DNA from: Marinactinospora thermotolerans DSM 45154
GTDB lineage: Bacteria > Actinomycetota > Actinomycetes > Streptosporangiales > Streptosporangiaceae
Direction of reading: 5' to 3'
Length of the DNA stretch: 64,000 nt
Assembly: GCF_900167435.1 (NCBI RefSeq)
Contig: NZ_FUWS01000004.1
Coordinates: forward strand, 310,001-374,000
This document shows, piece by piece, positions 7,083-32,628 of the stretch. The position numbers were made by a program, and so were the translations under genes. Positions within the stretch are counted from its first letter, which is position 1, and every line of letters starts with the position of its first letter. The notes under the pieces were generated by a model that was given only the letters and a program-made list of their open reading frames with translations, did not search any database and was not told the origin of the DNA.

Positions 7083-8102
7083 TCAGCCGGTCCGGGCCGG
7101 CTGGGCGGCGGACGCCTGGCGGGGCACCCCGCCCCGCGCCGTTTCGAGCGAGCGGCTCAGGAAGCCGCAGGCCGTTTCCAGCGCGACCTTGTTGGCGCAG
7201 GTCTCGCGCAACAGGTCGACCATGAGGAAGTCGTGCACCATGCCCCCGACACGCACCGCCGTGACCGGGACGCCCGCCTGGCGCAGCTTGGCCGCGTAGG
7301 CCTCGCCCTCGTCGCGCAGCACGTCGGCCTCGTCGGTGATGACCAGCGCCGGCGGAAGGTCGCGAAGCTGGTCGACCGAGGCCCGCAGCGGCGAGGCGGT
7401 GATCTCCGCCCGCTGGTTCTCGTCGGTGGTGTACTGGTCCCAGAACCAGATCATGCCGTCGCGGTTGAGGTAGTACCCCTCGGCGAACTGGTGGTAGGAC
7501 TCGGTGTCGAAGCCGGCGTCGGTCACCGGGTAGAACAGCGCCTGCCCCTTCAGGGTCACGTCGCCGCGCTCCTTGGCCATCAGCGTCAACGCGATGGACA
7601 TGTTCCCGCCGACCGAGTCACCGCAGACCGCCATGCGCGAGGCGTCCAGTCCCCTGCCCCGCCCCTCGCGCATCACCCACTGGGCGGCGGCGTAGTTCTG
7701 TTCGATGGCGGTGGGGTACTTCGCCTCGGGGGAGCGGCCGTACTCGGGGAAGACGACGGCCGCGTTGGCGCGTGTCGCGAGCTCCCGGACGAGCCGGTCG
7801 TGGGTCGCGGCGCTGCCGAACACCCATCCGGCACCGTGGATGTAGAAGATGACGGGAAGCGTCCCGCTCGCCCCCTTGGGGCGGACGATGCGCACGGGGA
7901 CGCTGCCGGTGGGCCCGCCCTGGACGGTGATCCACTCGTCGTCCACATCGGGCTTCTCGACGCCCTCTCCCGATTGAAGGTCCTCGAGGATCTGGCGTCC
8001 CTGTTCCGGGGGGAGCTCGTAGATGAACGGCCGCTTGGAGTTGGCGTCGGCGAACTCTTGGGCGGCCTTCTCCAGGACGACCGCGGGCTTGTTCTGTGCC
8101 AC
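7083..8102 (-). CDS. Alpha/beta hydrolase of the hormone-sensitive-lipase (Aes) family
   Basis: A 339-residue carboxylesterase-type hydrolase. The HSL-family oxyanion motif appears as VIFYIHGAGWVFGS, the nucleophile elbow as GDSVGGN, the acid region as VITDEADVLRDEGEAYA, and the catalytic His in VGGMVHDF. These enzymes hydrolyse short-chain esters, sometimes arylesters or antibiotic esters. The start is GTG at 8102, preceded by GAAGGAG eight bases upstream; an upstream in-frame GTG at 8144 is less well supported. The gene runs divergently from the molybdopterin oxidoreductase genes across about 250 bp. Confidence 0.88.
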   Translation of the reverse strand: MAQNKPAVVLEKAAQEFADANSKRPFIYELPPEQGRQILEDLQSGEGVEKPDVDDEWITVQGGPTGSVPVRIVRPKGASGTLPVIFYIHGAGWVFGSAATHDRLVRELATRANAAVVFPEYGRSPEAKYPTAIEQNYAAAQWVMREGRGRGLDASRMAVCGDSVGGNMSIALTLMAKERGDVTLKGQALFYPVTDAGFDTESYHQFAEGYYLNRDGMIWFWDQYTTDENQRAEITASPLRASVDQLRDLPPALVITDEADVLRDEGEAYAAKLRQAGVPVTAVRVGGMVHDFLMVDLLRETCANKVALETACGFLSRSLETARGGVPRQASAAQPARTG

Positions 8103-8349
8103 GGTTGTGACTCCTTCGCATCGAGACTGTTCAGCGGCGTCCACAGGGACGCCGATGTTCCCCTGGGCCGCTGACCTGAGGACGAGTCAGAGAAACCGGA
8201 TTTACCAAGACAGAAGACCTAAATTGCTCCATCTGCGGACGATACGGGCGGGCCAGGTCGATGTTGGCCCTGGCCCTGCCGTCGCTTGACCGGATCGGGG
8301 GTAGGGCCGCCGCCGACGTGCTCCACATCAGTGAGAGGACAGGGCGCTC

Positions 8350-8945
8350 ATGGGCATCGTGTCGAGGGGATTCCAGGGCCGTCGTGGCGGCGACAGCGAA
8401 CGCCTCCCGCCGGGGCAGTACCTCACCGACGGTTTCCCCGTCCTGACCGCGGGTCCCACCCCGCGCGTGGACACCGGCGAGTGGACGTTCACGATCACCA
8501 CCGAGACCGGCGAGTCGCGGACCTGGTCATGGCGGGAGTTCCAGAATCTGCCCCAGGAGCATCCGCACACCGACATCCACTGTGTGACCCGCTGGTCGAA
8601 GTTCGACACCGACTGGACGGGGGTGTCGCTGGACACGCTCCTGGCCGACGTCGACACCTCCGCCGACTACGCACTGGCCTACTGCTACGGCGGCTACAGC
8701 ACCAACCTGCCGCTCCAGGACCTCCAGGAGGGCCGGGCGTGGGTCGTGCACGAGTTCGAGGGGGAACCGTTGCCCGCCGAGCACGGCGGCCCGGCTGTTC
8801 GTCCCCCACCTGTACTTCTGGAAGTCGGCCAAATGGGTCCGCGGCATCCGGCTGCTCGACCACGACGAACCCGGCTTCTGGGAACAGGCCGGCTACCACG
8901 ACTACGGCGACCCCTGGCGCGAGCAGCGCTATCGGGGGGGACTGA
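8350..8945 (+). pseudogene. Sulfite-oxidase-like molybdopterin oxidoreductase, broken by two indels
   Basis: A small (about 200 aa) soluble member of the sulfite oxidase/YedY-like molybdopterin family. The first 145 codons are intact and include [19 protein letters not shown], in which Cys is the expected molybdenum ligand. Near 8791-8796 the frame breaks; continuing in the +1-shifted frame gives [19 protein letters not shown], the expected family continuation. This fits loss of one copy of a 5-bp CCCGG-type repeat. A second break lies in the seven-G run at 8934-8940: with six Gs the protein would end RGD with TGA at 8943-8945, three bases before the next gene. Two compensable indels suggest either recent decay or assembly error. 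Confidence 0.75.
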
Positions 8946-8948
8946 GGG

Positions 8949-9686
8949 ATGGCCGGCCGCTGGAGGGCGGCCACGGTCGCCGCGCACCGTCCCGAGACCC
9001 CCACGGCGCGCACCCTGGTCCTGCGGGTTCCCGACTGGCCCGGGCACCTGGCGGGCCAGCACGTCGACGTCCGGCTCACCGCCGAGGACGGCTACACCGC
9101 CCAGCGCAGTTACTCGCTGGCCGCGCCCGCCGTCGGCGACCTCATCGAGGTGACCGTGCAGCGCGTCCCCGACGGGGAGGTATCGCCCTACCTCGTCGAG
9201 GTGGCCGACGTCGGCGACCAGATCGAGATCCGCGGCCCTCTCGGCGGCTGGTTCGTCTGGAGGCCCGACGACCCGGCCCCGGTGGTGCTGGTGGCCGGCG
9301 GCGCGGGGATCGTGCCGCTGATGTCGATGGTGCGGACCCGGCGGATGGCGCGCGCCAAGGCGCTGTTCCGGTTGCTGTACTCGCTGCGTTCGCCGGCGGA
9401 GCGCTACTACTCCACGGAGCTGGGCTCCCACCAGGCGGGTGACGGAGGTCTGGACGTCTTCCTCGCCTACACGCGGGAAGCACCCGAGGGGGTGACACGC
9501 CCGCCACAGCGCCTGGCCCTGTCGGAGATCAACACCCACGGCCTACCGCCGGACTCCGCGCCGACCTGCTTCGTCTGCGGCCCCACCGGGTTCGTGGAGA
9601 GCGCTGCCAACGCGCTGGTCGCACTGGGACACGACCCGCGCAGGATCAAGACCGAACGCTTCGGTCCCAGTGGAGGACGACCATGA
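8949..9686 (+). CDS. FAD/NAD(P)-binding oxidoreductase (ferredoxin-reductase type)
   Basis: A 245-residue flavin reductase of the ferredoxin-NADP reductase superfamily without an iron-sulfur domain. FAD-binding RSYSLA lies near residue 57, the pyridine-nucleotide glycine motif [14 protein letters not shown] follows, then CGPTGFVE and the C-terminal ERFG. It starts 3 bp after the expected stop of the sulfite-oxidase-like gene and overlaps the next gene by 4 bp, so the three form one operon. By context it probably passes electrons between NAD(P)H and the molybdenum protein; the physiological substrate is unknown. Confidence 0.88.
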
Positions 9687-9964
9687 CGACACCCTCTGTC
9701 TCCGAGCCCAGCCACCTCGACGGCAACGCGCTGGCCGGCCCACTGTCGGAGGTGTTCCGGGTGGATCTGACCGGTGCGACACGCCGCTGCGCGGTGTGCG
9801 GGATCACCGGGGCCTTCGCCGAGCTTCGGGTCTACGCCGAATGTCCGGGGCTGGTGGTGCGCTGTCCCGGATGCGACACGGTGGTGTTGCGCCTGGTCCA
9901 CGAGGGCGGTGTCCTCTGGCTCGACCTGGGCGGAACCGGCTGCCTGCGGCTGCGGGTGAAGTGA
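9683..9964 (+). CDS. DUF6510 family small zinc-ribbon-like protein
   Basis: A 93-residue protein starting at an ATG that overlaps the upstream TGA (ATGA). It carries two cysteine pairs, CAVC near residue 37 and CPGC near residue 64, as in a zinc ribbon. Sequence and position behind a sulfite-oxidase-like protein and flavin reductase match DUF6510 proteins of actinobacteria (recalled association). Its role is unknown; a subunit or assembly factor of the molybdenum system is a reasonable inference. Confidence 0.75.
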   Translation: MTTPSVSEPSHLDGNALAGPLSEVFRVDLTGATRRCAVCGITGAFAELRVYAECPGLVVRCPGCDTVVLRLVHEGGVLWLDLGGTGCLRLRVK

Positions 9965-10546
9965 CGCCGGTCTTCGCGTCCTCCGCGACGACGGGGTGAC
10001 GCCGGGGCGCGCGAGGCCCGGTCGCGCCCGGGCGCAGTCCGACGGGCGTCCGCGGCCCCTCCCACCGGTCGGTCCGGTTCCGCGTGCGAGACGGCGCCGC
10101 CTTTGGGATGTGAGCCGGGCCTGAAGCCGTTCGGGGCCGGGGAGGATGTCGCCCTTCCGGCCGGGAAGAACCGGGAATCCGCTCTTCCGTCGATCCGGTT
10201 GGAAACCCCTGGTCCCACGCCCCGTTGTGGCTCCCGCGGGCTCAGCCCGGCGACACCGCCGCCCGCCGAGGTCACCGTCCGCACGCTTTCCTCCGCCCCG
10301 TGGGGCGGAGGAAAGCGCCGGGCGTCGACCACCTCCGGCGGAGCATAGGTCCGGGGGCAGCCCTCTCCGCGTTCCCGTATCGGTGGTGGGCGCACAGCGG
10401 GCCGAAATCCCGCCAGCGCCGCCGAAATCCCCTTGCGCCACGCCCCAGATGTCCTGAAACACTCCCGGAACACCGATGGGAACCCGTGGCCGGCCACGGG
10501 CGTTGGAGCCGCGTACGCCACGGGCAGGACGATGGGGGAGAAGTCG
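9965..10546. other. Intergenic stretch, 582 bp, with one strong hairpin
   Basis: No gene recognised. Apart from the 15-bp stem annotated separately, the only feature is GGGGGAG at 10534-10540, the ribosome binding site of the helicase gene. Confidence 0.5.
10285..10316 (+). terminator. Perfect 15-bp hairpin after the molybdenum operon
   Basis: GCTTTCCTCCGCCCC pairs perfectly with its complement across a two-base GT turn. It has no T-run, which is common for actinobacterial terminators. It lies about 320 bp after the DUF6510 stop and before the helicase gene, so it probably ends the upstream transcript. Confidence 0.5.
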
Positions 10547-13354
10547 ATGACGGAGACGTCCGGTTCCCGACCGCGGGAACTCACGGGGTGCGCGGTCGTG
10601 TTCGAACCGGCCGACCCGCCACGGACGGGACACCTGGCCTGGTGGTGTGTCGACGGCTCGAAGCCGCCGGCGCATCTGGGCCAACCGGGAACGCTGACGA
10701 TCGCCGTCCGGGACGGCACGGCGGTGCGGCCCAGGATCCTGCCGGTGGCGCGCACCCCGGTGGGCGCGGCCCTGGCCGACCTGGTCCGGATCCGGCGCGA
10801 CGGGGGCGCCCATCCCGCCGCGTCCTTCTGGGGCGCGGTCGCGATCGAGGCACTGACCTCGGTGGCACGTGGGCGGCTGCTGCCAGGTGTCTCCCCCGAG
10901 GGGTTCGACGCCTGGCGGATCGGTCCGTTGGACGCCGGGACCGTCGACCGGATCCACGCCCTGGCCGCCGCCATGCCGGCCGAGGCCAGAGCTGTCCCGC
11001 TGCCCGGCACGGACCCTCTCGAACTTCCCGCTCCCGAAGACCTGATCCGGGCCTTCATGGACGCGGTGGCCGACACGATGCCGCGTACCCCCGCGGCGGT
11101 CGCGGCGAGCGGTGGCGCTCCGTTCGCCGCGACCGCGCCCCAACAGGTCCCCGAGCTGCGGGCGTGGGCCCATGAGGTGTCCGCCGGGATCGACTCCGGC
11201 GTACGGGTGTCGTTGCGGGTCGAGGTCGCCGACGGGGACTTCGAGGACGGCGTGTTCAGGGCCGTCCTGCAAGTCCACAGCGTGGCCGACCCGGCCCTGG
11301 TCGTCGACGCGGCCGACCTGTGGGAGGGGGCGAGGAGCGGATTCGACGACCGTGCCCGCTTCGACGCCGTCCTCGCGGTGCGACGGGCCGCCCGGGTGTG
11401 GGAACCGCTGGGGCGGCTCCTGGACGTGGCCGTCCCCGACGCGATCACCCTCACCGACGGCGAGGTCGAGGAGCTGCTGGACGGGGCCGCCGCGCCACTG
11501 GCGACCGCGGGCGTGGACGTCCACTGGCCCAAGGGGCTCGTCCACGAGATGACCGCCGGCGCCGTCGTGGGCGCCGGCGACCCACCGCCCTTCGGCGGCC
11601 CGGCGTTCCTCGGCGGCGACCAGTCGTTCTCCCTCGACTGGCGGATCGCCCTGGCCGGCGCTCCGTTGAGCGAGAAGGAGATGGACCTGCTCGCGGAGGC
11701 CCACCGGCCCGTGGTGCGGCTGCGCGACCAGTGGACGCTCGTACCGCCCGCCCTGGCCCGCAAGGCCCGCGACCGGCCGATGAAACCCCTGCCGGCGTTC
11801 GACGCGCTGACCGCGGCGCTCACCGGGAGCACCGAGATCGACGGGGAGCGGGTCACGGTCCTCGCCGACGGGTGGCTGAAGACGCTTCGGGACCGCATCG
11901 CCGACCCCATCACCGGCCACGAACAGGTGCGAACCCCCGCCGGTCTGACCGCGACCCTGCGCGACTATCAGCTGCGCGGCCTGGGCTGGCTCCACCGCAT
12001 GACCTCACTGGGGTTGGGGGGTTGTCTCGCCGACGACATGGGACTGGGCAAGACGATCACGCTCATCGCGCTGCACCTGCGCCGGCAGGCCGACCCCGCG
12101 ACCGCCGGACCGACCCTCGTCGTCTGCCCCGCCTCGCTGCTCGGCAACTGGGAGCGCGAGATCACCCGCTTCGCCCCCGGCACCCCCGTGCGCCGTTTCC
12201 ATGGCGCCGGACGCGCGCTCGACGGTGTCACCGACGGATTCGTGCTCACCACCTACGGCACGATGCGGTTGGACGCCGGACGGCTCGCCGAGGTGGGATG
12301 GCGCCTCGTCGTCGCCGACGAGGCCCAGCACGTGAAGAACCCCCGGTCGGGAACCGCCAGAGCGCTGCGGACCATCCCCGCGCCCGCGCGTGTCGCCCTC
12401 ACCGGCACCCCCATCGAGAACAACCTGACCGAGTTGTGGGCGATCCTCGACTGGACGACGCCCGGCCTGCTCGGCACGCTCACCGCGTTCCGCCGGCGCT
12501 GGGCCGAGACGGTCGAGGGCGGGCGCGACCCCGAGGCCGCCGAACGGCTGTCACGGCTGCTCCGTCCCTTCCTGCTGCGTCGCCGAAAGACCGACCCCGG
12601 CATCGCCCCCGAACTGCCCGCCAAGATCGAGTCCACCCACCCGACCGCGCTCACCCGGGAACAGGCCGCGCTGTACGAGGCGCTGGTCCGCGAGGTCATG
12701 GAGCAGATCGCGGCGAGCGACGGGATGGCCCGGCGCGGACTGGTCATGAGGCTGCTGACCGGTCTCAAGCAGATCTGCAACCACCCCGCGCACTACCTCA
12801 AGGAGGAGCGTCCGTGGCTTCCGGGACGGTCGGGCAAGCTCGACCTGCTCGACGAGCTGGTCACCACCATCACCGCCGAGGACGGTGCCGTGCTCGTGTT
12901 CACCCAGTACGTGGCCATGGCCCGGCTCATCGAGGGCCGTCTGACCGAACGCGGCGTCCCCAGCCTGCTGCTGCACGGCGGCACGCCGATCCGACGGCGT
13001 GAGGAGATGGTGCGCGCCTTCCAGGAGGGGAGCGTCCCGGTGTTCCTGCTGTCGTTGAAAGCCGCCGGGACCGGGCTCAACCTCACCCGCGCCGACCATG
13101 TCGTCCACTACGACCGCTGGTGGAACCCCGCTGTCGAGGAACAGGCCACCGACCGCGCCCACCGCATCGGCCAGACCCGGTCGGTGCAGGTCCACCGCCT
13201 GGTCACCGAGGGAACGATCGAGGACCGCATCGACGCGATGCTGCGCGCCAAGCGGGAGCTCGCCGACGCGGTTCTCACCTCCGGTGAGGCGGCGCTGACC
13301 GAACTGTCCGACACCGAGCTGGCGGAACTCGTCGAGTTGAGGAGCGAGCGATGA
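10547..13354 (+). CDS. SNF2-family DEAD/DEAH-box helicase
   Basis: A 935-residue Swi2/Snf2 ATPase. A long N-terminal region (1-460) precedes the helicase core: LRDYQLRGLGWL, Walker A ADDMGLGKT near residue 500, VVADEAQHVKNP (DEAQ box), ALTGTPIENNL, then the second RecA lobe with VFTQYVAMARLI, LHGGTPIRRREEMV, LKAAGTGLNLTRAD and DRAHRIGQ. Such proteins translocate on duplex DNA and remodel protein-DNA complexes. The start is ATG 10547 with GGGGGAG just upstream. It overlaps the SWIM gene by 4 bp, a widely conserved actinobacterial pair, which implies the two proteins act together, possibly in DNA repair or defence. Exact role unknown. Confidence 0.9.
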   Translation: MTETSGSRPRELTGCAVVFEPADPPRTGHLAWWCVDGSKPPAHLGQPGTLTIAVRDGTAVRPRILPVARTPVGAALADLVRIRRDGGAHPAASFWGAVAIEALTSVARGRLLPGVSPEGFDAWRIGPLDAGTVDRIHALAAAMPAEARAVPLPGTDPLELPAPEDLIRAFMDAVADTMPRTPAAVAASGGAPFAATAPQQVPELRAWAHEVSAGIDSGVRVSLRVEVADGDFEDGVFRAVLQVHSVADPALVVDAADLWEGARSGFDDRARFDAVLAVRRAARVWEPLGRLLDVAVPDAITLTDGEVEELLDGAAAPLATAGVDVHWPKGLVHEMTAGAVVGAGDPPPFGGPAFLGGDQSFSLDWRIALAGAPLSEKEMDLLAEAHRPVVRLRDQWTLVPPALARKARDRPMKPLPAFDALTAALTGSTEIDGERVTVLADGWLKTLRDRIADPITGHEQVRTPAGLTATLRDYQLRGLGWLHRMTSLGLGGCLADDMGLGKTITLIALHLRRQADPATAGPTLVVCPASLLGNWEREITRFAPGTPVRRFHGAGRALDGVTDGFVLTTYGTMRLDAGRLAEVGWRLVVADEAQHVKNPRSGTARALRTIPAPARVALTGTPIENNLTELWAILDWTTPGLLGTLTAFRRRWAETVEGGRDPEAAERLSRLLRPFLLRRRKTDPGIAPELPAKIESTHPTALTREQAALYEALVREVMEQIAASDGMARRGLVMRLLTGLKQICNHPAHYLKEERPWLPGRSGKLDLLDELVTTITAEDGAVLVFTQYVAMARLIEGRLTERGVPSLLLHGGTPIRRREEMVRAFQEGSVPVFLLSLKAAGTGLNLTRADHVVHYDRWWNPAVEEQATDRAHRIGQTRSVQVHRLVTEGTIEDRIDAMLRAKRELADAVLTSGEAALTELSDTELAELVELRSER

Positions 13355-14574
13355 CCACGGGACACGACGACCGCGTCCGCGGCTTTCCCGCGTTCTCGCC
13401 ACAGAAGGGGCGAGGACGCGGACGCTCCTGGTGGGCGCGGGCCTGGACCACGGCGATGGAGGAGAACTCGCTCGACCGCGAGCCGTTGGCCAAGGGGCGC
13501 GCCCACGCCCGTACCGGACACGTCGGCACGATCACCGTCAGCCCCGGCCGGATCGCCGCGCCGGTCTACGGTCCCGGGCACGCCTCGCTCCACCACACCG
13601 CCGTGTTCGTCGAGGAGCTGTCCGACGCCGAGTGGGCGCGCCTGCTCGACCAGGTGGCCGCCGAATCGGGGCACATCGCGGCACTGCTCGAAGGCGAGAT
13701 GCCGCACGCCCTGGTGGACGCGGCCGAGGAGGCCGGCGTGCGGCTGCTTCCGGGCATCGGCGATCTGGAACCCGAATGCGACTGCGACGACTGGGAACTT
13801 CCCTGCATGCACGCCGCGGCCCTGTGCTACCAGGCCGCCTGGCTGCTGGACGACGACCCGTTCGTGCTGCTGCTGATGCGCGGCCGGGGCAGGAGCGAGC
13901 TGTTGGACGAGCTGCGGCACCACGCGGCTCCGGGGAGGAGCGCGGCCCGCGGCCGGGAGGCCACGGCGGCGCGGGGGACCTCCGCCGAGGAGGCCTACGC
14001 CCGCGTTCTCGGCCCGCTGCCCGAGGAGACACCGCCCCCCGGCACGCTCGACGCCCTGCCCGCCCTGACCCCCCTTCCCGGAGGTGAACCCGACGCGCTG
14101 GATCTCCTCGTCGCCGACGCCGCGGCCCGGGCGCGCGACCTCCTCGTCACCGGCGCGCCGCCGCCACGGCTCGACCTGTGGCGCGACACCGTGCGGCTGG
14201 CCGCGGCCTACCACGGGAGGGCCCGGGAACGGTTGGGTCGGGCGAGCGGCCGCGGCGAGGAACTGGAGCGCGCCGCACGGGCGTGGGAGTACGGTGGCCC
14301 GCAAGGACTGGAGGTCCTGGAGTCCCCTTGGGACCCGCCGGAGCACGTGTCGGCCCGGATGGGAGACGCGCTGTCCATGACCTGGGAGGGCGAGCGGGCG
14401 CCGCGGGCGGACGTCCGGCACAATCACTGGACGCTGGTCGAACACGGGATCCAGGTCCGCTACGGACGTGACGGGCGCTGGTACCCCTACCACGAGCGGG
14501 ACGGGCTCTGGTGGCCCGCGGGGCCGCCGTCGCACGACCCCGCGGAGGCGCTCGCCGGACTGCTCGACGGGTGA
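13351..14574 (+). CDS. SWIM zinc-finger protein, partner of the SNF2 helicase
   Basis: A 407-residue protein with the SWIM motif ECDCDDWELPCMHAAAL (CxC...CxH) near residues 143-158. The opening FPAFSPQKGRGRGRSWWARAW is typical of SWIM proteins encoded next to SNF2 helicases. Translation starts at the ATGA overlap with the helicase stop, so the two are translationally coupled. SWIM domains bind DNA or proteins; no catalytic motif is seen in the rest of the chain. The C-terminal part has repeated Trp/Tyr-rich segments of unknown fold. Confidence 0.9.
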   Translation: MTTGHDDRVRGFPAFSPQKGRGRGRSWWARAWTTAMEENSLDREPLAKGRAHARTGHVGTITVSPGRIAAPVYGPGHASLHHTAVFVEELSDAEWARLLDQVAAESGHIAALLEGEMPHALVDAAEEAGVRLLPGIGDLEPECDCDDWELPCMHAAALCYQAAWLLDDDPFVLLLMRGRGRSELLDELRHHAAPGRSAARGREATAARGTSAEEAYARVLGPLPEETPPPGTLDALPALTPLPGGEPDALDLLVADAAARARDLLVTGAPPPRLDLWRDTVRLAAAYHGRARERLGRASGRGEELERAARAWEYGGPQGLEVLESPWDPPEHVSARMGDALSMTWEGERAPRADVRHNHWTLVEHGIQVRYGRDGRWYPYHERDGLWWPAGPPSHDPAEALAGLLDG

Positions 14575-14665
14575 GCGCCCGAAGGCGGGGGTGGTGGGGG
14601 CACCACCCCCGGTCCTCATCCCCGGGGTAGTGCCCTTCCACGTGCCGTTCCGTAACTTCGACTCC

Positions 14666-15310
14666 ATGACAGACCTGCTGCGCCGCCTCGGCACCGACAC
14701 TCGTTGCGTCTTGTTGGGCTTTCCCCTTTCCCTCGTCTCCTTCGTGCTGTCGGTGACCGGGTTGGCGCTGGGTGTGGGAACCGCCGTCACCGTCGTCGGC
14801 GTGCCCATCCTGGCCTTGACCCTGCTCATGGCGCGTGGGTTCGCCACCGCGGAGCGCAGCCTCATGACCGACATACTCGGCCGCCGCTTCCCACCGCCGC
14901 GCTACCGCCGTGCCGCGCCCGGGGCGGGGACCTGGCGCGTGATGACCGCCCCGCTGGCCTGCGCCCAGAGCTGGATGGACCTGCTGCACGCCGTCACGCG
15001 CCTTCCCCTCGCCGTGCTCACGTTCTCGGTCGTGGTGTCCTGGTGGGCGGTGACCCTGCACGGGCTGGCCTTCCCCTTCTACCGCTGGAGCCTGGTGGGG
15101 ATCCCCGGTTACCAGGACCTCAGCGAACTGATCGGCCTGGGGAGCGGGGCCACGACCTCGCTGCTGTTCCACCTGGCGCTCAGCGCGGCGTTCGCGCTGA
15201 CCCTGCCCTTCGTGACGCGCGCCTGCGCGCTGCTCAACGCGGGCCTGGGGATGGCCCTGCTCTCCCCGCAGCCGGTGGCCGACGTCGCGGGGCCCCGCGC
15301 CACCGTCTGA
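14666..15310 (+). CDS. Membrane protein with putative sensor domain
   Basis: A 214-residue integral membrane protein with four hydrophobic segments in two pairs: near residues 15-55 (LLGFPLSLVSFVLSVTGLALG and ITLLAL-like continuation) and near 115-190. This is the layout of the Putative Sensor family that, in other actinobacteria, forms the N-terminus of histidine kinases. Here it stands alone with no kinase or response regulator beside it. The ATG at 14666 follows a short leader without a strong ribosome binding site; a longer upstream frame is unlikely. Function unknown. Confidence 0.65.
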   Translation: MTDLLRRLGTDTRCVLLGFPLSLVSFVLSVTGLALGVGTAVTVVGVPILALTLLMARGFATAERSLMTDILGRRFPPPRYRRAAPGAGTWRVMTAPLACAQSWMDLLHAVTRLPLAVLTFSVVVSWWAVTLHGLAFPFYRWSLVGIPGYQDLSELIGLGSGATTSLLFHLALSAAFALTLPFVTRACALLNAGLGMALLSPQPVADVAGPRATV

Positions 15311-15972
15311 GCCGGACGCCCGCTCTACAGGTCGGCGGGCACCGGCACGCCCCGGGTGGGAGGCCGGACCCACCCGCGCGTCGGACAGGGCGGCGGGACG
15401 GCTCGCGGAGGCGGTCCCGCGACCCCACGGGGAGCACGGGGGAGAAGGCGGCCGCGACTCGGAGGCGACGACCGGGAACGCGACGGCACCGGCGGCCCCT
15501 CCCGGAGCGGGAAGGCCCGACGAGGCGTGGACCGCGCAAGATCCACTCCTGTCCAGCGCTTCTTCCACATCCGGTCACCGCTTCTTCACCCTCTGGACTC
15601 ATACGGGGATCGTGGTTAGCGTCCATGCCGACGTGCTCGCGCCGAGCGCGTCGAAACGCCGGTCACGCCGTACCCCTTCGACGTGGCCGCCCCGACTCGT
15701 CGTCTCGAAGGGCGCCCCGGGACACGGCCGTTCCCCGACGGGCCGGCCACGCATCGACCGGTGTCGTCTGCCATGACCGATCCGACCCCTGCCGTCATCG
15801 GCGGACGAGCCGCCGAGTAGCCGGTTGTACCGCCCGTGCCCCCGATCGCCGAGCACGCGCCGGGCCAAGGCCGTCCCCGCTCCCGTCCCTGTTTTCGGTG
15901 GGCGCGTGGACGCCCACGTGAGTTCCACAAACGGGTGTCATCGTCATCTGGCAAAAGGGGTGGTGATGTTCG
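15311..15972. other. Gene-poor interval, 662 bp
   Basis: No convincing gene in either strand. CAGCGCTTCTTCCACATCCGG and TCACCGCTTCTTCACC near 15550-15595 form a short imperfect direct repeat of no known meaning. Confidence 0.4.
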
Positions 15973-16343
15973 ATGCGACCGTTCCCTAAAGAAAGCGGCA
16001 TCTCAGCCTCGTGGCGGAAACGGTTCACGGAATCGGGCTACCTGGTCCTTCCCGAAAGCCTTCTACGGCGGCTCGAACCCGAGGTGGACCACTGGGTGGA
16101 CGAGGGACTGCGCGCGGTCGATCGCCGCCTGCGTCGATCCCGGCCTCCACGGCCCGCCCCCGCCCCTGGAACTGGAGCTGCCTGCCCACGGTGAACTGCT
16201 CACCTTTCCGCCCCTGATGGGACTGCTCTCCCAGCTGGTGGCATCCTCCTTCGTCTTCCACCACACGCACAGCGACCGGCACGGTCCGCACACGGGCGGA
16301 AAACCCTGGCACCACGACTACGAGCCCGGCGCCGACGAGATGT
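15973..16343 (+). pseudogene. Remnant of a phytanoyl-CoA dioxygenase-like gene
   Basis: The first 50 codons read SWRKRFTESGYLVLPESLL...LEPEVDHWVDEGLRAV, typical of the start of Fe(II)/2-oxoglutarate dioxygenases of the PhyH family. Near 16125-16140 the frame shifts and the family sequence continues as DPGLHGPPPP...GELLTFPPLMGLLSQL, ...FHHTHSDRHGP and GKPWHHDYE, the region that carries the iron ligands. After about 16340 homology-like sequence ends and the rest of the barrel is missing. It is therefore a frameshifted and truncated remnant. The family assignment is from recalled sequence character. Confidence 0.55.
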
Positions 16344-17012
16344 TGGTCCTGGAGTGCGCGGTCCGCCGCGCGCTGCCGCGGTGGCGTTCGCCGGCCGGCC
16401 TGCCCAACGCCTGGGATCCGGTGCGCTGGAGGCACCTCGACGTGCAGGCCCAGGGCCGGGGTGGCGCCCCTTCCCTGCCGTCCTTCCCCATCTCCCGCGC
16501 TCTGGGGAGCGCGGCCGGCCACACCGGGAGGAGAGGAGTGGGGGAGCGGCGCGACGCCCCGCGCGGTCCGAGGACGGTACGGGCGGGGTGGCCGCCCTCC
16601 CACCGCCGGAACCGGCTCTCCCTTCCCGACGCGGCCGGAAAGGCCCGGTCGTGTGCCAGGGATCTCTCCCAGCGCCGGACCAGCGCGTCCCCCTCACCGA
16701 GCCGCTCACCCGCGATCGGCGGTGGCGTGCCGCCGGCCGGGCGGTCGGTCACGCCGGCGTCGACACCGCTCGCCGAGACCGGTATGGCCGGCGGCCACCG
16801 TCGGCCGTCAAGGAAACGGCACGACACAGCCCTCTCCCACGGCTCGTGGTCGGCGCCGGTGATGTTCGGACCGAGTTGCCCTTTATACCCTCCCGGGGTA
16901 TACGCCGGTATACCTGCCCGGGGTATCGAAGACGCATTCGCGGCCGGAGACGGCCTCCCGAACCCCCGGCGACCATCGCGGACCCACCGAACGGCGACGA
17001 GAGGGAGAAGAC
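16344..17012. other. Intergenic stretch ending in an operator region
   Basis: About 540 bp of GC-rich sequence without a recognisable gene, followed by the tandem palindromes at 16884-16926 and by GAGGGAGAAG just before the GTG of the exporter gene. Confidence 0.45.
16884..16926 (+). promoter_or_regulatory. Tandem CsoR-like operators before the exporter gene
   Basis: Two inverted repeats share the plan ATACCY-N5-GGGTAT. The first, TATACCCTCCCGGGGTATA at 16884-16902, has perfect 7-base arms; the second is at 16910-16926. They start 25 bp apart and lie about 90 bp before the exporter start. TACCC/GGGTA dyads with a GC-rich centre resemble Cu(I)-responsive CsoR operators of actinobacteria. No csoR gene is in the window, so the regulator is inferred. 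Confidence 0.6.
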
Positions 17013-18453
17013 GTGACAGCGAGACGGCGTGGCGGCGTGGTACCGCTGCTAGTGATCGCGACCGCGCAGTTGATGCTGGTGCTCGACGACTCGATCGTGA
17101 ACATCGCGCTGCCGAGCATCCAACAGGAGCTCGGCGTGGACGCGGTACACCTGCCCTGGGTCGTCAACGCCTATATCCTCGCGTTCGGGGCGTTGCTGCT
17201 ACTCGGCGGACGGATCGGCGACCTGTGGGGACGCCGCCGCACGCTGCAGCTAGGCATCGCGATCTTCGTGATCGCCTCCCTGGTCGGCGGTCTCGGACAG
17301 AACGCCGCCATGCTCATCACCGCGCGCCGCACAGGGGCTCGGAGCGGCGCTCACCGCACCCAACGCCCTGGCGTTGATCGCCACGACGTTCTCCGACCGC
17401 AAGACGCGCGACACCGCGCTGTCGCTCTACGGTGCGATGTCCGGCCTGGGCATCGTCGTGGGCCTGCTCCTGGGGGGAGTGCTCACCGACGTCCTGGACT
17501 GGCGATGGGTGTTCTTCATCAACGTCCCCATCGGCCTGCTCGTGCTATGGGGCAGCCGCACTCTGGTCACCGCCGACCGCGGCCGGGGCCGACTCGACAC
17601 CCTGGGAGCGACGTTGGGCACCGGCGGCATGGTCGCGCTCGTGTACGCGATCACCAGGTTCGGCGAGGACGGGCTCACCGACCCGGCCGCGTTGCTCCTG
17701 CTGGGCGGGGCCGTCGCGCTGCTCCTCGTGTTCGTCACCTTCCAGGCCCGCAGCTCCAGTCCCCTGGTACCGCTGGCCCTGTTCGGCGACCGCAACCGGG
17801 CCGGCGCCTATGCGACCATGCTGCTGCTGGCCGTCGGCCCCATGGGCTCCTTCTACGTCATCACCCTCTACCTGCAGCAGGTTCAGCACTTCAGTCCACT
17901 GCAGACGGGTACGGCGTGGCTGCCGTTCGCCGCGGGTCTCGTCCTGGGCGCCGGGACCGCTCCCAGGCTCCTGCTGCGCCTCGCGCCGCGGTTCGTCGCC
18001 ACGCTGGGAGCGCTGCTCAGCGCCGCGGCGGCGTTCTGGTTCTCCACGATCACCGTGGACACGGGCTACTGGACACACCTGGCCCCGGCGATGTTCGTCC
18101 TGGGGCTGGGTTTCGGCCTGGGTATCCTCGCGCTCACCCAGGCCGCGGTCTACCGTGTCGATCCGGACAAGGCCGGGATCGCATCGGCCCTGCTCAACTC
18201 CGCCCAGCAGATCGGTGTCGCGCTCGGCCTGGCCATCCTGGCGGGGATCGCCGCCAGCGTCACCGCCCAGCCCGGGAACACGGTCCTGGCCGCCGGCGAA
18301 GCCCTGGCCTCCGGGTACGGCACCGCTCTGGCGGCGGCAGCAGGGCTCCTCGTCGCCGCGGCGGCACTCGCCCTGACCACGCTCGACGCCCGCCCGAACA
18401 CGAGCCAGGACGTGTCCGGCCCGGCCGGCGCGGAGACCGAACCGGTGAGCTGA
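17013..18453 (+). pseudogene. EmrB/QacA (DHA2)-type MFS exporter with one frameshift
   Basis: A 14-helix proton-driven drug or metabolite exporter. From GTG 17013 the frame gives LMLVLDDSIVNIALPSIQ, the DHA2 helix-1 signature, and LGGRIGDLWGRR, the A motif. Near 17322, after MLITAR, the frame breaks; from about 17330 the next frame continues QGLGAALTAPNALALIATTF and runs to 18453 through the remaining helices. The break fits loss of 2 bp in GCGCGC. The rest is intact over about 370 codons, so the lesion is recent or an assembly error. GAGGGAGAAG precedes the start, and the two CsoR-like operators lie upstream, pointing to metal- or thiol-stress control. Confidence 0.8.
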
Positions 18454-21834: not shown

Positions 21835-22196
21835 GCGGATGTCCGAGGCGGCGGCGATCGGGGCGCGGCTTCCCCTGAAACGACCTGGGAAAACGGACGT
21901 CGGGGTCCCATGCCACCGATTGGCCGATCTTGGACAGAGTGCGACATTACCCCTACTCTTCGTGATCGACGCTGATAGCTTCACGTCGTCGTGATCGGTC
22001 GGCCGCCCCCGCGGCCGACCCTCCGACCGGGCTCGCCGTCCCCTCAGCCGCCCCCCGTGAGGCCGGGGCGGCGCGCCCGCCCCCGCGGCCGGTACTTACG
22101 CCATCAACCACGCCGAGCCGTACATACCAACGACCTCGACCGGACGCTCCGCGGAGCGCGCAAACCGGTGCCGGGCACCGTGGAGGGAGACAGAGC
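21835..22196. other. Upstream region of the CrtC-prenyl synthase operon
   Basis: 362 bp without a gene. It is slightly AT-richer around 21930-21985 (TTGGACAGAGTGCGACATTACCC is a candidate promoter segment). GGAGGGAGA at 22182-22190 is the ribosome binding site of the next gene. Confidence 0.35.
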
Positions 22197-24398
22197 ATGA
22201 CAGGTGGAACGGGGACGGAGGTCCCACGGGCGCGGTCCGCCCCGGACGCGTGCGACCTCCCACGGCCCGAAGGCACCCGATGGTGGCGGTTCGCCGCCCT
22301 GTTGTACGGCGAGGGCGGCCCCTTCGGCGTCACCTGCCTGTTCCTGCGCCACCACGGTCCCGCCACCGACACGGGCGTTCCCCAAAGCGCCCACGCCCTC
22401 GTCTGGGCCCGCGCCGACGCGGCAACGCGGACCCGCGTCGGGGAATCATGGATGGACCCGGCCGCGGTGGAGCTCATCCGACGTACCGTCGCGGGTGACC
22501 GGCACATGGACCCGCGGGTACGCGACGCCTTCGGCGAGGCGCTGGCACAGGGAAGGCCGCTGGGCCCCGACCGCCCCCTCCCCGGACCGGTCCGGGCCGG
22601 CGCGACAGGACTGGACCTGGATTTCGGCGGTGTCGGCGTGCTGCGCGAGGAGGACGACGGCTCCCACCTCGTCGAGGCGGGAACCGAGGGGAGCGGTCTC
22701 TCCCTGCGGTTCGCCGTCGGCGATCTCGGGTCGGCCTCACCGGAACAGCGGGAGGGCGGGCCGGTCCCGCGCCTGGAGGTCACCGGGGTTCTGCGCCAGG
22801 ACGGCGCTCACACGGCCGTGCGCGGACAGGGCTGGTACGAGCACTTCCACAGCCGCTCCTGGCACCAGGACCCCGCCACCGACCAGGCCCTGCGCGCCGG
22901 GCGCACACGGGTCCGATTGCACCTGGACAACGGCTGGGAGGTCCACGCTTGCGCCACCGGCGGAAGCGACGGCCGGGCCGGCCGCGCCCTCCTGCGCACA
23001 CCCCAGGGGGAGGTGATCGAGGCGCCCATGACCCTGCGCGGATCCTCTCCCTGGACCTCACTGGCCACCCTCAACACCTACGCCACGGTCTATGAGCTGA
23101 CGGTGCCGCGCACCGCCCTGGACCTGCGCGCGCGGGTGTGGTTCCCGAAGCAGGAGAACCGGTCCTCGCTCGTCCTGCCGGGCACGCTGGAGGCGTGGGC
23201 CGACGTCGAGGGCGCCTTCGGCGGAGAGCCGGTACGGGGGTGGGGCACCGTCGACGTCCTCCCCCTCGGCCGGTTCGACGACTTCGAGGAGCACATCACC
23301 CGGATCCGCGACACCACGAGCCAGGAGATCCGCCGGCTGTTCCCCGACGAACCGCGGCGTCGCGAACTCGTCACCGTCGCGGGCCTGGAGGAGCGCCCCG
23401 ACGTCCTGGACGAGCTGGTGGTCCAGACGCTGCACGAATCACTGGTGCGGCCGATACGACACATCACCGACGGCCTGGGCAAGAGCATGCGCTCCTACGT
23501 CACCGCCGCGACCATCGAACTGTTCGGCGTCGACAGCGAGCCGTACCGCTCCCTTCTGGGAGCCGTCGAGATCCTGCACTCGGGCAACCTCACCGTGGAC
23601 GACGTCGAGGACCGCTCGCCCATGCGGCGCGGGCGCCCGGCCGTCCACACGGTCTTCGGCGAGGCGACGGCCATCAACGCGGGGACCGCCGCCTACTTCG
23701 TGCTGGACGGGGTCCTGCGCCGCGTCCTGCCCGACGATGACCGGCTACGGCGGCGGATCTATGAGGTCTACCTCGGCGTGATGCGGGCCGCCCACGCGGG
23801 TCAGGCGCTCGACATCGCCGGCCACCGGGAGGCGATGGACGCGGCGGTGGCCGGCGGGGACGCCGAGGCGGTGCTGCGCCGCGTCCGCGTCACCCACCGG
23901 CTCAAGACGGCCGTCCCTGTCCGGGGCCTCGCCGAGATCGGCGGGATCGTCGCCCGCGCGGAGGAACGTCAGCTCGCGGCGTTGCGCGACTACTTCGAGG
24001 CGGTTGGAATGGCCTACCAGGTCAGCGACGACGTCATGGACCTGCGCGGGCTGTCCGCGCGCGACGAAACCGGCGAGACCGTGGCGACCAAGCACGTCGC
24101 CGAGGACCTGCGGGCGGGCAAGGTCACCATGCCCCTGGGGCACGCCGTCGCCCTCCTGCCGGGACCGCTCATGCGGGAGGTGTGGGCGACCGTACGCGGT
24201 GGTGGGGTCGACGCCGCGACCGCCGCCGAGATCGTGACCCTGCTGGAGGGGCACGGCGTCATCGACGCCTGCCTCGACGAGGCCGAGCGGATGGTCGACC
24301 AGGCGTGGGGGCCTTTCCACGACCTGCTGCCCGGCAACCACCTGGCCGTGATGATCCGCGCCCTGGGCCGCTACGCGGTCCGACGCGAACGCGAGTGA
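22197..24398 (+). CDS. CrtC/AttH-like domain fused to trans-prenyl diphosphate synthase
   Basis: A 733-residue two-domain protein. Residues 1 to about 370 resemble the lipocalin-like CrtC/AttH fold of carotenoid 1,2-hydratases: GQGWYEHFHSRSWH corresponds to the family's conserved W-x-(D/E)-H block, followed by LHLDNGWEVHA, YATVYELTVPRTALDL and GGEPVRGWGTVDVLP. Residues about 380-733 form a trans-isoprenyl diphosphate synthase with both aspartate motifs intact: DDVED at 468-472 followed by RRGRP, and DDVMD at 611-615, plus KHVAEDLRAGK. The C-terminal half should make an allylic diphosphate (GPP to GGPP range); the N-terminal half may hydrate or cyclise it. That coupling is inference. Strong GGAGGGAGA precedes the ATG. 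An ABC transporter follows at 33 bp. Confidence 0.75.
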   Translation: MTGGTGTEVPRARSAPDACDLPRPEGTRWWRFAALLYGEGGPFGVTCLFLRHHGPATDTGVPQSAHALVWARADAATRTRVGESWMDPAAVELIRRTVAGDRHMDPRVRDAFGEALAQGRPLGPDRPLPGPVRAGATGLDLDFGGVGVLREEDDGSHLVEAGTEGSGLSLRFAVGDLGSASPEQREGGPVPRLEVTGVLRQDGAHTAVRGQGWYEHFHSRSWHQDPATDQALRAGRTRVRLHLDNGWEVHACATGGSDGRAGRALLRTPQGEVIEAPMTLRGSSPWTSLATLNTYATVYELTVPRTALDLRARVWFPKQENRSSLVLPGTLEAWADVEGAFGGEPVRGWGTVDVLPLGRFDDFEEHITRIRDTTSQEIRRLFPDEPRRRELVTVAGLEERPDVLDELVVQTLHESLVRPIRHITDGLGKSMRSYVTAATIELFGVDSEPYRSLLGAVEILHSGNLTVDDVEDRSPMRRGRPAVHTVFGEATAINAGTAAYFVLDGVLRRVLPDDDRLRRRIYEVYLGVMRAAHAGQALDIAGHREAMDAAVAGGDAEAVLRRVRVTHRLKTAVPVRGLAEIGGIVARAEERQLAALRDYFEAVGMAYQVSDDVMDLRGLSARDETGETVATKHVAEDLRAGKVTMPLGHAVALLPGPLMREVWATVRGGGVDAATAAEIVTLLEGHGVIDACLDEAERMVDQAWGPFHDLLPGNHLAVMIRALGRYAVRRERE

Positions 24399-24431
24399 AC
24401 CCCTCCCCATCCCCTTCGGAAAGGCTCTGCG

Positions 24432-25088
24432 GTGTCCCTCTCCGGCCCCACCCTCGAAGTCCACGACGTCCACAAGTCCTACGGGAACCGCCCCGTGCTG
24501 CGGGGAGCCGACCTCTCCCTTCCCCCGGGCCGCCTGGCCGGGGTGGTCGGCGAGAACGGTTCCGGCAAGACCACGCTGCTGCGGATCCTCGCCGGGCAGC
24601 TCGCCCCCGACCGGGGCCGGGTCGGCTACCCGGGCGGCCTGGGGTACTGCCCCCAGCACCCGATCCTCAACCCCGCCTTCACCGTCGACCAGCACCTGCG
24701 CTTCTTCCAGGTCGCCTACGACCTGCCCACACTCGACCGCGCGCGCGAGCTGACCGAGATCCTGGGGTTCACCGGCTACGGAGGACACCGTGTCTCCGCG
24801 CTCAGCGGGGGCACCCGGCAGAAGCTCAACCTCACCCTCGCCCTGATGCACGATCCGCCCCTGCTCCTGCTGGACGAGCCCTACCAGGGGTTCGACTGGG
24901 AGACCTACGAGCGGTTCTGGGAGCTGGCCGCCAGCCTGCGCGACCGGGGATGTTCGGTTCTCGTGGTCTCCCACATCGCCTTCGACACCACCCGCTTCGA
25001 CGTCCTGTGGCGCCTGGTGGAGGGCCGGCTGGCCCGTGTCGAGGTGCCCGTGGACGCCGGCGGCGCGGTACGGGCGGAGGGCCGTTGA
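24432..25088 (+). CDS. ABC transporter ATP-binding protein
   Basis: A 218-residue nucleotide-binding subunit with Walker A GENGSGKTT near residue 38, Q-loop YCPQH, signature LSGGTRQK, Walker B LLLLDEP and switch SHIAF (His). It starts at GTG 24432, 33 bp after the prenyl synthase fusion, and ends 2 bp before the permease, so all three genes form one operon. With the permease it makes a small two-component transporter of the ABC-2 export type. By context the cargo would be the product of the upstream enzyme; that is inference. Confidence 0.9.
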   Translation: MSLSGPTLEVHDVHKSYGNRPVLRGADLSLPPGRLAGVVGENGSGKTTLLRILAGQLAPDRGRVGYPGGLGYCPQHPILNPAFTVDQHLRFFQVAYDLPTLDRARELTEILGFTGYGGHRVSALSGGTRQKLNLTLALMHDPPLLLLDEPYQGFDWETYERFWELAASLRDRGCSVLVVSHIAFDTTRFDVLWRLVEGRLARVEVPVDAGGAVRAEGR

Positions 25089-25090
25089 CC

Positions 25091-25915
25091 ATGCGACGTG
25101 CCTGGACCCGCTACTCCACGGCGACCCTCTACGCGCTCACCGAGCACCTGCGCAACCGGTTGGCGCTCGTTCTCGTCGTGTTCTTCGTGCCCGTCTGGAT
25201 CACCCTGGTCTACCTGGTGATCACCGACGTCGATGTGCGCTTCTACCTTCGGGCCTCGGAACAGCAGATCACGGTGGACGGCAACGACGTCAGCAAGATC
25301 TCCGGCGCCGTCAACGCCGTCACCCTGATCGTCGGGTTCATGATGTTCATCGTCACCTTCCGTTCCACCGGGTTCGACCAGCGTCTGGCCATGGCCGGCT
25401 ATCCACGCCTGCACCTGCTCCTGGCCAAGCTCACCGCGCTGCTCGTCGCCTCGGCCCTGGTCTGCGCCTACGCGGTGGCCGTCATCTGCGTCTACTGGGT
25501 GCCCGAGCAGCCGGTGCTGCTGTGGACCGCGCTGCTCGGGGCGGCGCTGGCGTTCGGGGGGCTCGGGGTGGCCCTGGCCGCGGTCCTGCGCGGCGAACTG
25601 GAGGGGATGTTCGCCATCATCATGCTCAGCATCATCGACATGGGGTTGCAGAACCCGGTGTCCAATCCGGCCTCTGACAGCGACATCGTCCGCTATCTGC
25701 CGACCTACGGGGCCATGCAGTCCGGGGTGACCGCCGGCTTCCTCGACACCACCCCGGTGCTCCACCTGTTCCTGGGACCGTTGTGGTTCCTCTGCGCGGT
25801 CGTGGTGGCGGGCACCGCGTTCCGGTTGCGCACCCGCGACCGGCGGATCGGCCTGCCGGCGCCCGGCTTCGGCGGTCGGCGGAGGACACCCCGGGATCCA
25901 CCGCTGGGGACGTGA
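25091..25915 (+). CDS. ABC-2-type transporter permease
   Basis: A 274-residue membrane protein with six predicted helices: around residues 25-50, 75-100, 110-140, 145-165, 170-195 and 225-255. A hydrophilic loop near residues 50-70 may be external. It begins at ATG 25091 directly after the ATPase stop. No substrate motif is recognisable. It has one permease domain, so a functional exporter would be a homodimer with two copies of the ATPase. Last gene of the prenyl synthase operon; the following 460 bp contain no further gene. Confidence 0.88.
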   Translation: MRRAWTRYSTATLYALTEHLRNRLALVLVVFFVPVWITLVYLVITDVDVRFYLRASEQQITVDGNDVSKISGAVNAVTLIVGFMMFIVTFRSTGFDQRLAMAGYPRLHLLLAKLTALLVASALVCAYAVAVICVYWVPEQPVLLWTALLGAALAFGGLGVALAAVLRGELEGMFAIIMLSIIDMGLQNPVSNPASDSDIVRYLPTYGAMQSGVTAGFLDTTPVLHLFLGPLWFLCAVVVAGTAFRLRTRDRRIGLPAPGFGGRRRTPRDPPLGT

Positions 25916-31605: not shown

Positions 31606-32502
31606 TCAGGGGACCAGGCGGACGACGCCGCCCGCCTCCAGCGCCGTCCACACGGCCCCGTCAGGCCCCACGGCGATCCCGTGGGGTTCCGAGGCGGGCC
31701 GTGGCAGCGCGTACCGGGTGATCTCGCCGTCGGGAGCAATGTGGCCGATCCGGCCCGCCCCCCACTCGCTGAACCAGCACCCCCCGTCGGAGGCGGCGGT
31801 GATGGCGTGCGGTCGGGCCGCGCGATCGGGCAGCGGGAACTCGCGGATGCGACCGTCGGGGTCGATCCGTCCCACCTGCCCGGCCGCGATCTCGACGAAC
31901 CACACGGCTCCGTCACCGCCGCGGGTGATGCCCACGGGACCGGCATCGGCGGTCGGCAACGGGTGCACCGTCACCGCTCCGTCGAGGCTGATGCGTCCCA
32001 GGGCGTTCGCCTGGTGCAGCGTGAACCACATCGCCCCGTCCGGGCCCTCGGTGATCGCCGAGGGGAAGGCCCTCTCGACGGGAAGCGGGAAGTCGACCGT
32101 CTCCCCCGCGGGGGAGATCCGGCCGATCCGGTCGACGTTGGGTTCGGTGAACCAGATGGCCCCGTCGGGGCCGGCCGCGATCCCGTAGGGACCGCTATCG
32201 GGCGTGGGCGTCTCGAACAGAAGCGCCGACCCGTCGGTCGCGATCCGGCCGATCCGGTGGTCGCGGAACCGGGTGAACCACAGCGCCCCGTCGGGGCCGG
32301 GGGTGATGACCGTCGGCCCGCAGCCGGGCGCGTCAAGGGAGTGGACGTCGATCCGGCCGTCCAGGGAGAGCCGCGCGATCTCCCCGGAGTTGACCAGGGT
32401 GAGCCACATGGCCCCGTCGGGGCCGGCCGTGATCCCGTAGGGGCCGGCCTCCGGGCCCGCGACCGCGAATTCGTGGAGGGAGGACGGGGGAATGGTGGGC
32501 AT
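31606..32502 (-). CDS. vgb: Virginiamycin B lyase (Vgb-like)
   Basis: A 298-residue seven-bladed beta-propeller, matching the usual 295-300 residue length. Blades repeat GPYGITAGPDGAMWLT, DGALWFTRFRDHRIGRI, DGAIWFTEPNVDRIGRI and so on. Known Vgb catalysis uses two His and a Glu near 229, 270 and 284 (staphylococcal numbering, recalled); equivalents here are H232 (RPHAI), H274 (EPHGI) and E289 (ALEAGG). The enzyme linearises streptogramin B antibiotics by beta-elimination. ATG 32502 has AAGGA upstream. Actinomycete homologues are often intrinsic, so resistance is plausible but not shown. Confidence 0.82.
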   Translation of the reverse strand: MPTIPPSSLHEFAVAGPEAGPYGITAGPDGAMWLTLVNSGEIARLSLDGRIDVHSLDAPGCGPTVITPGPDGALWFTRFRDHRIGRIATDGSALLFETPTPDSGPYGIAAGPDGAIWFTEPNVDRIGRISPAGETVDFPLPVERAFPSAITEGPDGAMWFTLHQANALGRISLDGAVTVHPLPTADAGPVGITRGGDGAVWFVEIAAGQVGRIDPDGRIREFPLPDRAARPHAITAASDGGCWFSEWGAGRIGHIAPDGEITRYALPRPASEPHGIAVGPDGAVWTALEAGGVVRLVP

Positions 32503-32628
32503 GTCGGTCCTTCGCATCGGCTGGTGGGGGGCAAGGGTCCGATCTCGCGGATCGGGGGAGGGGCGCAGGTGGACGGTCGGCCACGGGCGTCCACCCGTCT
32601 CCTCCCGTCTCCGCGCACGTACCGTTTC

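Follow-up and report, generated by a model that had tools for sequence, protein, structure and literature searches.

The present analysis concerns a 64,000 nt stretch of the genome of Marinactinospora thermotolerans DSM 45154 (the window; positions of its features refer to the forward strand of this stretch) and, within it, a fusion gene at positions 22197–24398 (+ strand), an uninterrupted open reading frame (ORF) encoding a protein of 733 aa. Profile matches and structural models show this protein to be a predicted trans-prenyl diphosphate synthase joined to a double lipocalin of the CrtC/AttH/kievitone hydratase type. We favor the reading that the fusion is a bifunctional enzyme that carries out two isoprenoid steps and is served by its own exporter, to which we assign a rough probability of 0.48, that is, just below even odds. 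This reading is supported by the single fused group, which is set apart from 31 unfused synthases with 100/100 branch support, by an invariant set of acidic and Trp residues (53 of 53 fusions outside the actinomycetes) whose counterparts in CrtC are needed for hydration, by purifying selection on the N-terminal domain, and by the pairing of the fusion with exporters in two forms. Each half represents a known family; their combination is widespread and appears to be undescribed, and a literature search covering open-access papers turned up no account of a prenyl synthase joined to a CrtC/AttH domain. The fusion may thus point to a kind of lipid or terpenoid pathway that has not been described.

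The C-terminal half (residues 388–733, positions 23358–24395, + strand) is readily assigned. PF00348 matched residues 414–652 with an E-value of 5.8e-39 (134 bits versus the Pfam cut-off of 27), and the model of this half has the all-alpha synthase fold, aligning with 1wy0 over 327 residues (Z 35.1, 2.7 Å). Both DDxxD motifs, which the original prediction had described as intact, are indeed present, as DDVED (residues 468–472, positions 23598–23612, +) and DDVMD (residues 611–615, positions 24027–24041, +). Asp 468, 469, 472, 611, and 612 are found in all 81 aligned fusions, and the second motif ends in D in the window and in N in the non-actinomycete sequences shown. Five positions before the first motif stands a small residue (G in the window), a feature that permits long chains in some synthases; the surrounding motif, however, also resembles eukaryotic geranylgeranyl diphosphate (GGPP) synthases. 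The best NCBIfam match of the synthase half was NF041169, the Family 2 encapsulin cargo polyprenyl transferase; this assignment was rejected because the score was far below the cut-off (106 versus 450 bits) and the fusions form a separate clade.

For the N-terminal half, a two-barrel domain at residues 26–360 (positions 22272–23276, + strand), the window protein alone gives a sub-threshold match, with PF17186 (Lipocalin_9) aligning to residues 234–323 at an E-value of 7.7e-4 and 20–21 bits (Pfam cut-off 26.2). In a diverse set of 29 fusions, however, PF17186 matched all 29 (best 9.9e-27) and PF07143 (CrtC) matched 26 (best 2.7e-24) at E ≤ 0.001, and the CrtC/AttH assignment is secure across the family members. 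AlphaFold modeled the whole window protein with a mean predicted local distance difference test score (pLDDT) of 86.8 and a predicted template modeling score (pTM) of 0.87. Because structural matches of the whole protein were taken up by the synthase half, the N-terminal half was modeled (pLDDT 82.5, pTM 0.82) and searched separately. The beta strands of this model form a lipocalin pair, whose closest solved structure is the AttH protein NE1406 (2ich; Foldseek E 1.9e-17; Z 27.2, 3.4 Å, 283 residues), followed by kievitone hydratase (7a0q/7a0t; Z 24.9), the 25-phosphosteroid lyase (9g4c, 9fzn; Z 19–20, 19.6), and the pericyclases CghA, Fsa2, and Phm7 (Z about 19–20). The predicted fusion of a CrtC/AttH-like domain to a prenyl synthase was thus borne out.

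The fusion is not confined to the window. Among 299 genomes of the same order, 30 encode the N-domain, 22 as the fusion type and 8 only as a distant stand-alone type. Twenty full-length fusions of the order align over their whole length; one Nocardiopsis copy (L047, the same as L113; L047 positions 7929–10320) carries a frameshift near the domain boundary that leaves the halves in different frames, and another match (L066) lies on a short contig that holds the N-terminal part only. When contigs of a wider set of genomes were searched for the N-domain with the window sequence alone, no matches were obtained; the family alignment retrieved 452 relatives. Among the best 80 of these 452, fusions are carried by the actinomycetes Streptomyces, Lentzea, Glycomyces, Nocardiopsis, Nonomuraea, and Microtetraspora, and by Flavobacterium, Spirosoma, Telluribacter, Myxococcota, Legionella, cyanobacteria, Acidobacteriota and Clostridia metagenome-assembled genomes (MAGs), and Thermoplasmata. 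The full-length relatives span Bacteroidota, Myxococcota, Cyanobacteriota, Pseudomonadota, Thermoplasmatota, and others; the family is nevertheless patchy, with a clear fusion-type match in 3 of 198 sampled Bacteroidota genomes. Since the fused ORF and the order of fusion, ATPase, and permease genes recur in other genomes, chance or an assembly join was ruled out as the source of the fusion.

In an unrooted tree built from 29 fused prenyl synthases and 31 unfused ones, the latter representing a limited sampling, the fused proteins occupy one side of a single branch with 100/100 support, and the actinomycetes form one 100/100 group among them. The simplest reading of this tree is one fusion event with later vertical and lateral spread, and the fusion appears to be old and widely inherited in several bacterial phyla and Thermoplasmatota. 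For the stand-alone AttH-like proteins (L058–L065, L088–L100), no adjoining prenyl synthase was recognized by BLAST with the synthase half of the window protein. Four Thermoplasmata MAGs carry the fusion (L148, L159, L166, L172), two of which (L148 and L159) have conserved neighbors in common, one resembling, as judged by eye, a 3-hydroxyacyl-CoA dehydrogenase. In a MAG labeled Klebsiella pneumoniae (L157), the fusion groups with those of Myxococcota, and a mislabeled bin is most likely.

In CrtC of R. gelatinosus, the proton is proposed to come from D268, and hydration requires W110, W283, and W285, probably for cation stabilization (PMC12402844); the alanine mutants of H239, W241, Y266, and D268 are inactive (PMC4717167). 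In profile alignments, the Asp and the W-x-W of AttH and kievitone hydratase (WYD...WxW) fall on the same columns of the fusion profile, while CrtC itself is tied to these columns by motif spacing. E28, W29, W30, D215, W236, W238, W286, and E320 are invariant in the 53 non-actinomycete fusions, and the residues corresponding to CrtC D268, W110, W283, and W285 were found in every one of them; the window protein keeps W29 and W30 of this set but has E215, R236, and R238. Like CrtC, the fusions thus have a double lipocalin and, in most cases, the matching acid and Trp cluster; unlike CrtC, they are joined to a prenyl diphosphate synthase, and the window protein has Glu215 (codon 22839–22841, +) where CrtC and kievitone hydratase have their catalytic Asp, and Arg236-Thr237-Arg238 (positions 22902–22910, +) instead of the W-x-W (W283/W285 in CrtC). 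The nine other ABC-linked actinomycete fusions all have E at 215, and four of the nine have W at 238; in the fusions linked to an MMPL transporter, R, Q, or E stands at position 215 and R or H at position 236.

Several observations weigh against a catalytic N-domain. In the window protein, E is replaced by R at position 28, D by E at 215, and W by R at 236 and 238, and the FYYF stretch is missing; in CrtC, replacing W110, W283, or W285 by F or A, or D268 by L, N, or A, is detrimental (PMC12402844). Furthermore, the acid position is occupied by R or Q in 8 of 10 members of the MMPL-linked clade. The fold alone leaves the reaction open, since CghA, Fsa2, and Phm7 of the same fold are pericyclases, and an obvious pathway is absent at most of the non-actinomycete loci inspected, e.g., in Flavobacterium and Myxococcota. 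Because the W-x-W pair and other conserved residues are lost, catalysis by the window N-domain is uncertain. In its branch, with a Glu acid and R-x-R in place of the cation-stabilizing W-x-W, the chemistry has probably shifted or weakened, and the window copy may serve chain binding and hand-over only. The original proposal that the fused domain acts on the prenyl chain therefore holds up better for the wider family than for the copy for which it was made.

Extended to the family as a whole, hand-over would mean that the lipocalin pair performs no chemistry, but draws the chain from the synthase site, speeds turnover, and passes the chain to a membrane partner or exporter. A precedent exists in plants, where the lipocalin-type Fibrillin5 (FBN5) has been proposed to act in this way with the trans-prenyl synthase solanesyl diphosphate synthase (PMC5507956), although there the two are separate plastid proteins and FBN5 is proposed as a binder only. 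In the exporter-linked actinomycete branch, the hydratase motif has eroded while the synthase motifs stay fixed, which also points in this direction. However, hand-over leaves the 53/53 invariance of the active-site set in the remaining family unexplained, and we regard it as somewhat unlikely. The intact active site in most phyla versus the eroded one in actinomycetes offers a ready-made contrast between enzyme and carrier.

The same substitutions could be taken to mean that the window N-domain is a non-functional remnant that is being lost, leaving an ordinary additional prenyl synthase, and the N-terminal half does diverge faster than the C-terminal half. Yet the ORF is intact, the fold is confidently predicted, and W29, W30, W213, Y214, H216, W286, and E320 are retained. 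In addition, rough dN/dS values of the N-terminal half, calculated by the Nei-Gojobori method, which is biased in high-GC genomes, were 0.29–0.48 for six actinomycete pairs and 0.04–0.08 for four other pairs; by this rough measure, the half is under purifying selection in every pair tested. A degenerate remnant is therefore very unlikely.

Under the favored reading of a bifunctional enzyme, the synthase half would build an all-trans prenyl diphosphate, and the N-domain would hold the far (omega) end of the chain between its two barrels. An acidic residue would then protonate the terminal double bond, resulting in a tertiary alcohol (hydration) or in the start of a cyclization, while the diphosphate head would remain free to be transferred or hydrolyzed later; the lipid product would, in actinomycetes, leave the cell through the neighboring ABC-2 or MMPL transporter. 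That the N-domain protonates the far end of its partner's chain is suggested by its known relatives with acid chemistry, whose site of action is the terminal isoprenoid unit. Water is added there by CrtC and by kievitone hydratase, and the latter, which hydrates a prenyl end, shares the fold and the aligned WYD...WxW motif with the fusion; unlike the fusion, it is a secreted, stand-alone fungal enzyme for prenylated flavonoids. The 25-phosphosteroid lyase, also of the same fold, acts at the terminal isoprenoid unit of the sterol side chain, its step giving a side-chain alkene once C25 has been phosphorylated; in contrast to the fusion, it stands alone, as does AttH, and eliminates phosphate.

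The alternative outcome of protonation, a class II-like terpene cyclase, is a sub-case of the two-step enzyme and would place the fusion beside the chimeric terpene synthases of fungi (PTTS, e.g., variediene synthase) as their prokaryotic counterpart. The layout is the same, with a chain-modifying domain at the N-terminus and a prenyl synthase at the C-terminus, the CrtC mechanism has been compared to that of squalene-hopene cyclase, and P450s and a methyltransferase adjoin the fusion in Spirosomaceae. However, the searches brought up no CrtC/AttH-fold protein known to cyclize a prenyl diphosphate, and most loci lack a terpene cluster, so that we consider a cyclase unlikely. The N-terminal part of the PTTS is an alpha-helical class I cyclase, and the N-terminal half of the window protein is a beta double barrel. 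The PTTS have been described as only fungal (PMC8307374). If the N-domain does act on the adjoining chain, the fusions would be a bacterial and archaeal counterpart of these enzymes with an unrelated fold, and could directly guide genome mining for new isoprenoid lipids. We tentatively propose, at somewhat less than even odds, a chimeric prokaryotic class of one origin in multiple phyla, in which the lipocalin pair would carry out proton-initiated cyclization or omega-hydration of the prenyl diphosphate made in cis, yielding an undescribed family of terpenoid lipids that actinomycetes would export and other groups would glycosylate or methylate.

The genes following the fusion encode the putative exporter. 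As predicted, a two-gene ABC transporter lies downstream in the same operon and on the same strand, consisting of an ATPase of 218 aa (24432–25088, +; PF00005, E 1.7e-24) and an ABC-2 type permease of 274 aa (25091–25915, +; PF12698, E 7.9e-7, slightly below the cut-off), the ATG of which at 25091 is two bases past the ATPase stop. The order of fusion, ATPase, and permease is found in the window and at nine other loci of the order, where the ATPases are 73–87% and the permeases 71–82% identical to those of the window, and also in Streptomyces scopuliridis, S. rubellomurinus, and Lentzea. In Nonomuraea, Microtetraspora, S. griseocarneus, and S. triculaminicus, an MMPL transporter adjoins the fusion (PF03176, E 2.6e-65); a large MMPL/RND transporter on the opposite strand replaces the ABC pair at ten loci (L046, L048–L050, L053–L056, L119, L120). 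An exporter usually accompanies the fusion in actinomycetes; some of their loci have neither type, and the ABC-linked and MMPL-linked fusions separate on the tree. The exporter, described in the original prediction as belonging to the fusion, is thus real at the window locus, but it is an actinomycete feature outside the family core, with the ABC type in one clade and the MMPL type in a second.

The originally noted absence of P450s, and that of tailoring enzymes, was confirmed for the genes checked at about 17–35 kb, around the window locus, and does not extend to some relatives in other phyla. In Spirosomaceae (L139 positions 8725–16815, L142, L146, L149), the fusion is accompanied by an LMF1-like membrane protein, an FkbM methyltransferase, a P450, and a GT28-like glycosyltransferase, a conserved arrangement that looks like an uncharacterized biosynthetic cluster. 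Cyanobacterial fusion loci repeatedly contain FkbM methyltransferases and glycosyltransferases of the GT28-like or UDPGT kind, and members of these clusters are present in one Clostridia and one Acidobacteriota MAG. Such neighbors in several phyla would fit a newly made hydroxyl group, and this tailoring would resemble the CruF/CruG and CrtC/CrtF logic of carotenoid pathways.

The CrtC homology of the N-domain could itself indicate a carotenoid hydratase fused to the GGPP synthase of a carotenoid pathway. However, no crt genes were recognized among the neighbors checked in the window or in relatives. The window genome contains three further prenyl synthase genes besides the fusion, and its sole phytoene/squalene synthase match is on another contig, next to one of these three (C33). 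A carotenoid cluster at the window locus was therefore rejected, and carotenoid modification is highly improbable.

A Shine-Dalgarno-like GGAGGG, read directly from the sequence, precedes the ATG of the fusion gene (22182–22187, +), and scans for promoters and terminators at the window locus gave no signal clearly above chance. Elsewhere in the window, an MFS transporter gene (17013–18453, +) is split into two parts in different frames (17013–17372 and 17374–18453) that both match PF07690; this is a frameshift, resulting from mutation or from an assembly error. A further gene at 31606–32517 (− strand) encodes a member of the Virginiamycin B lyase family (PF24684, E 5e-140) and is likely of the streptogramin-resistance type.

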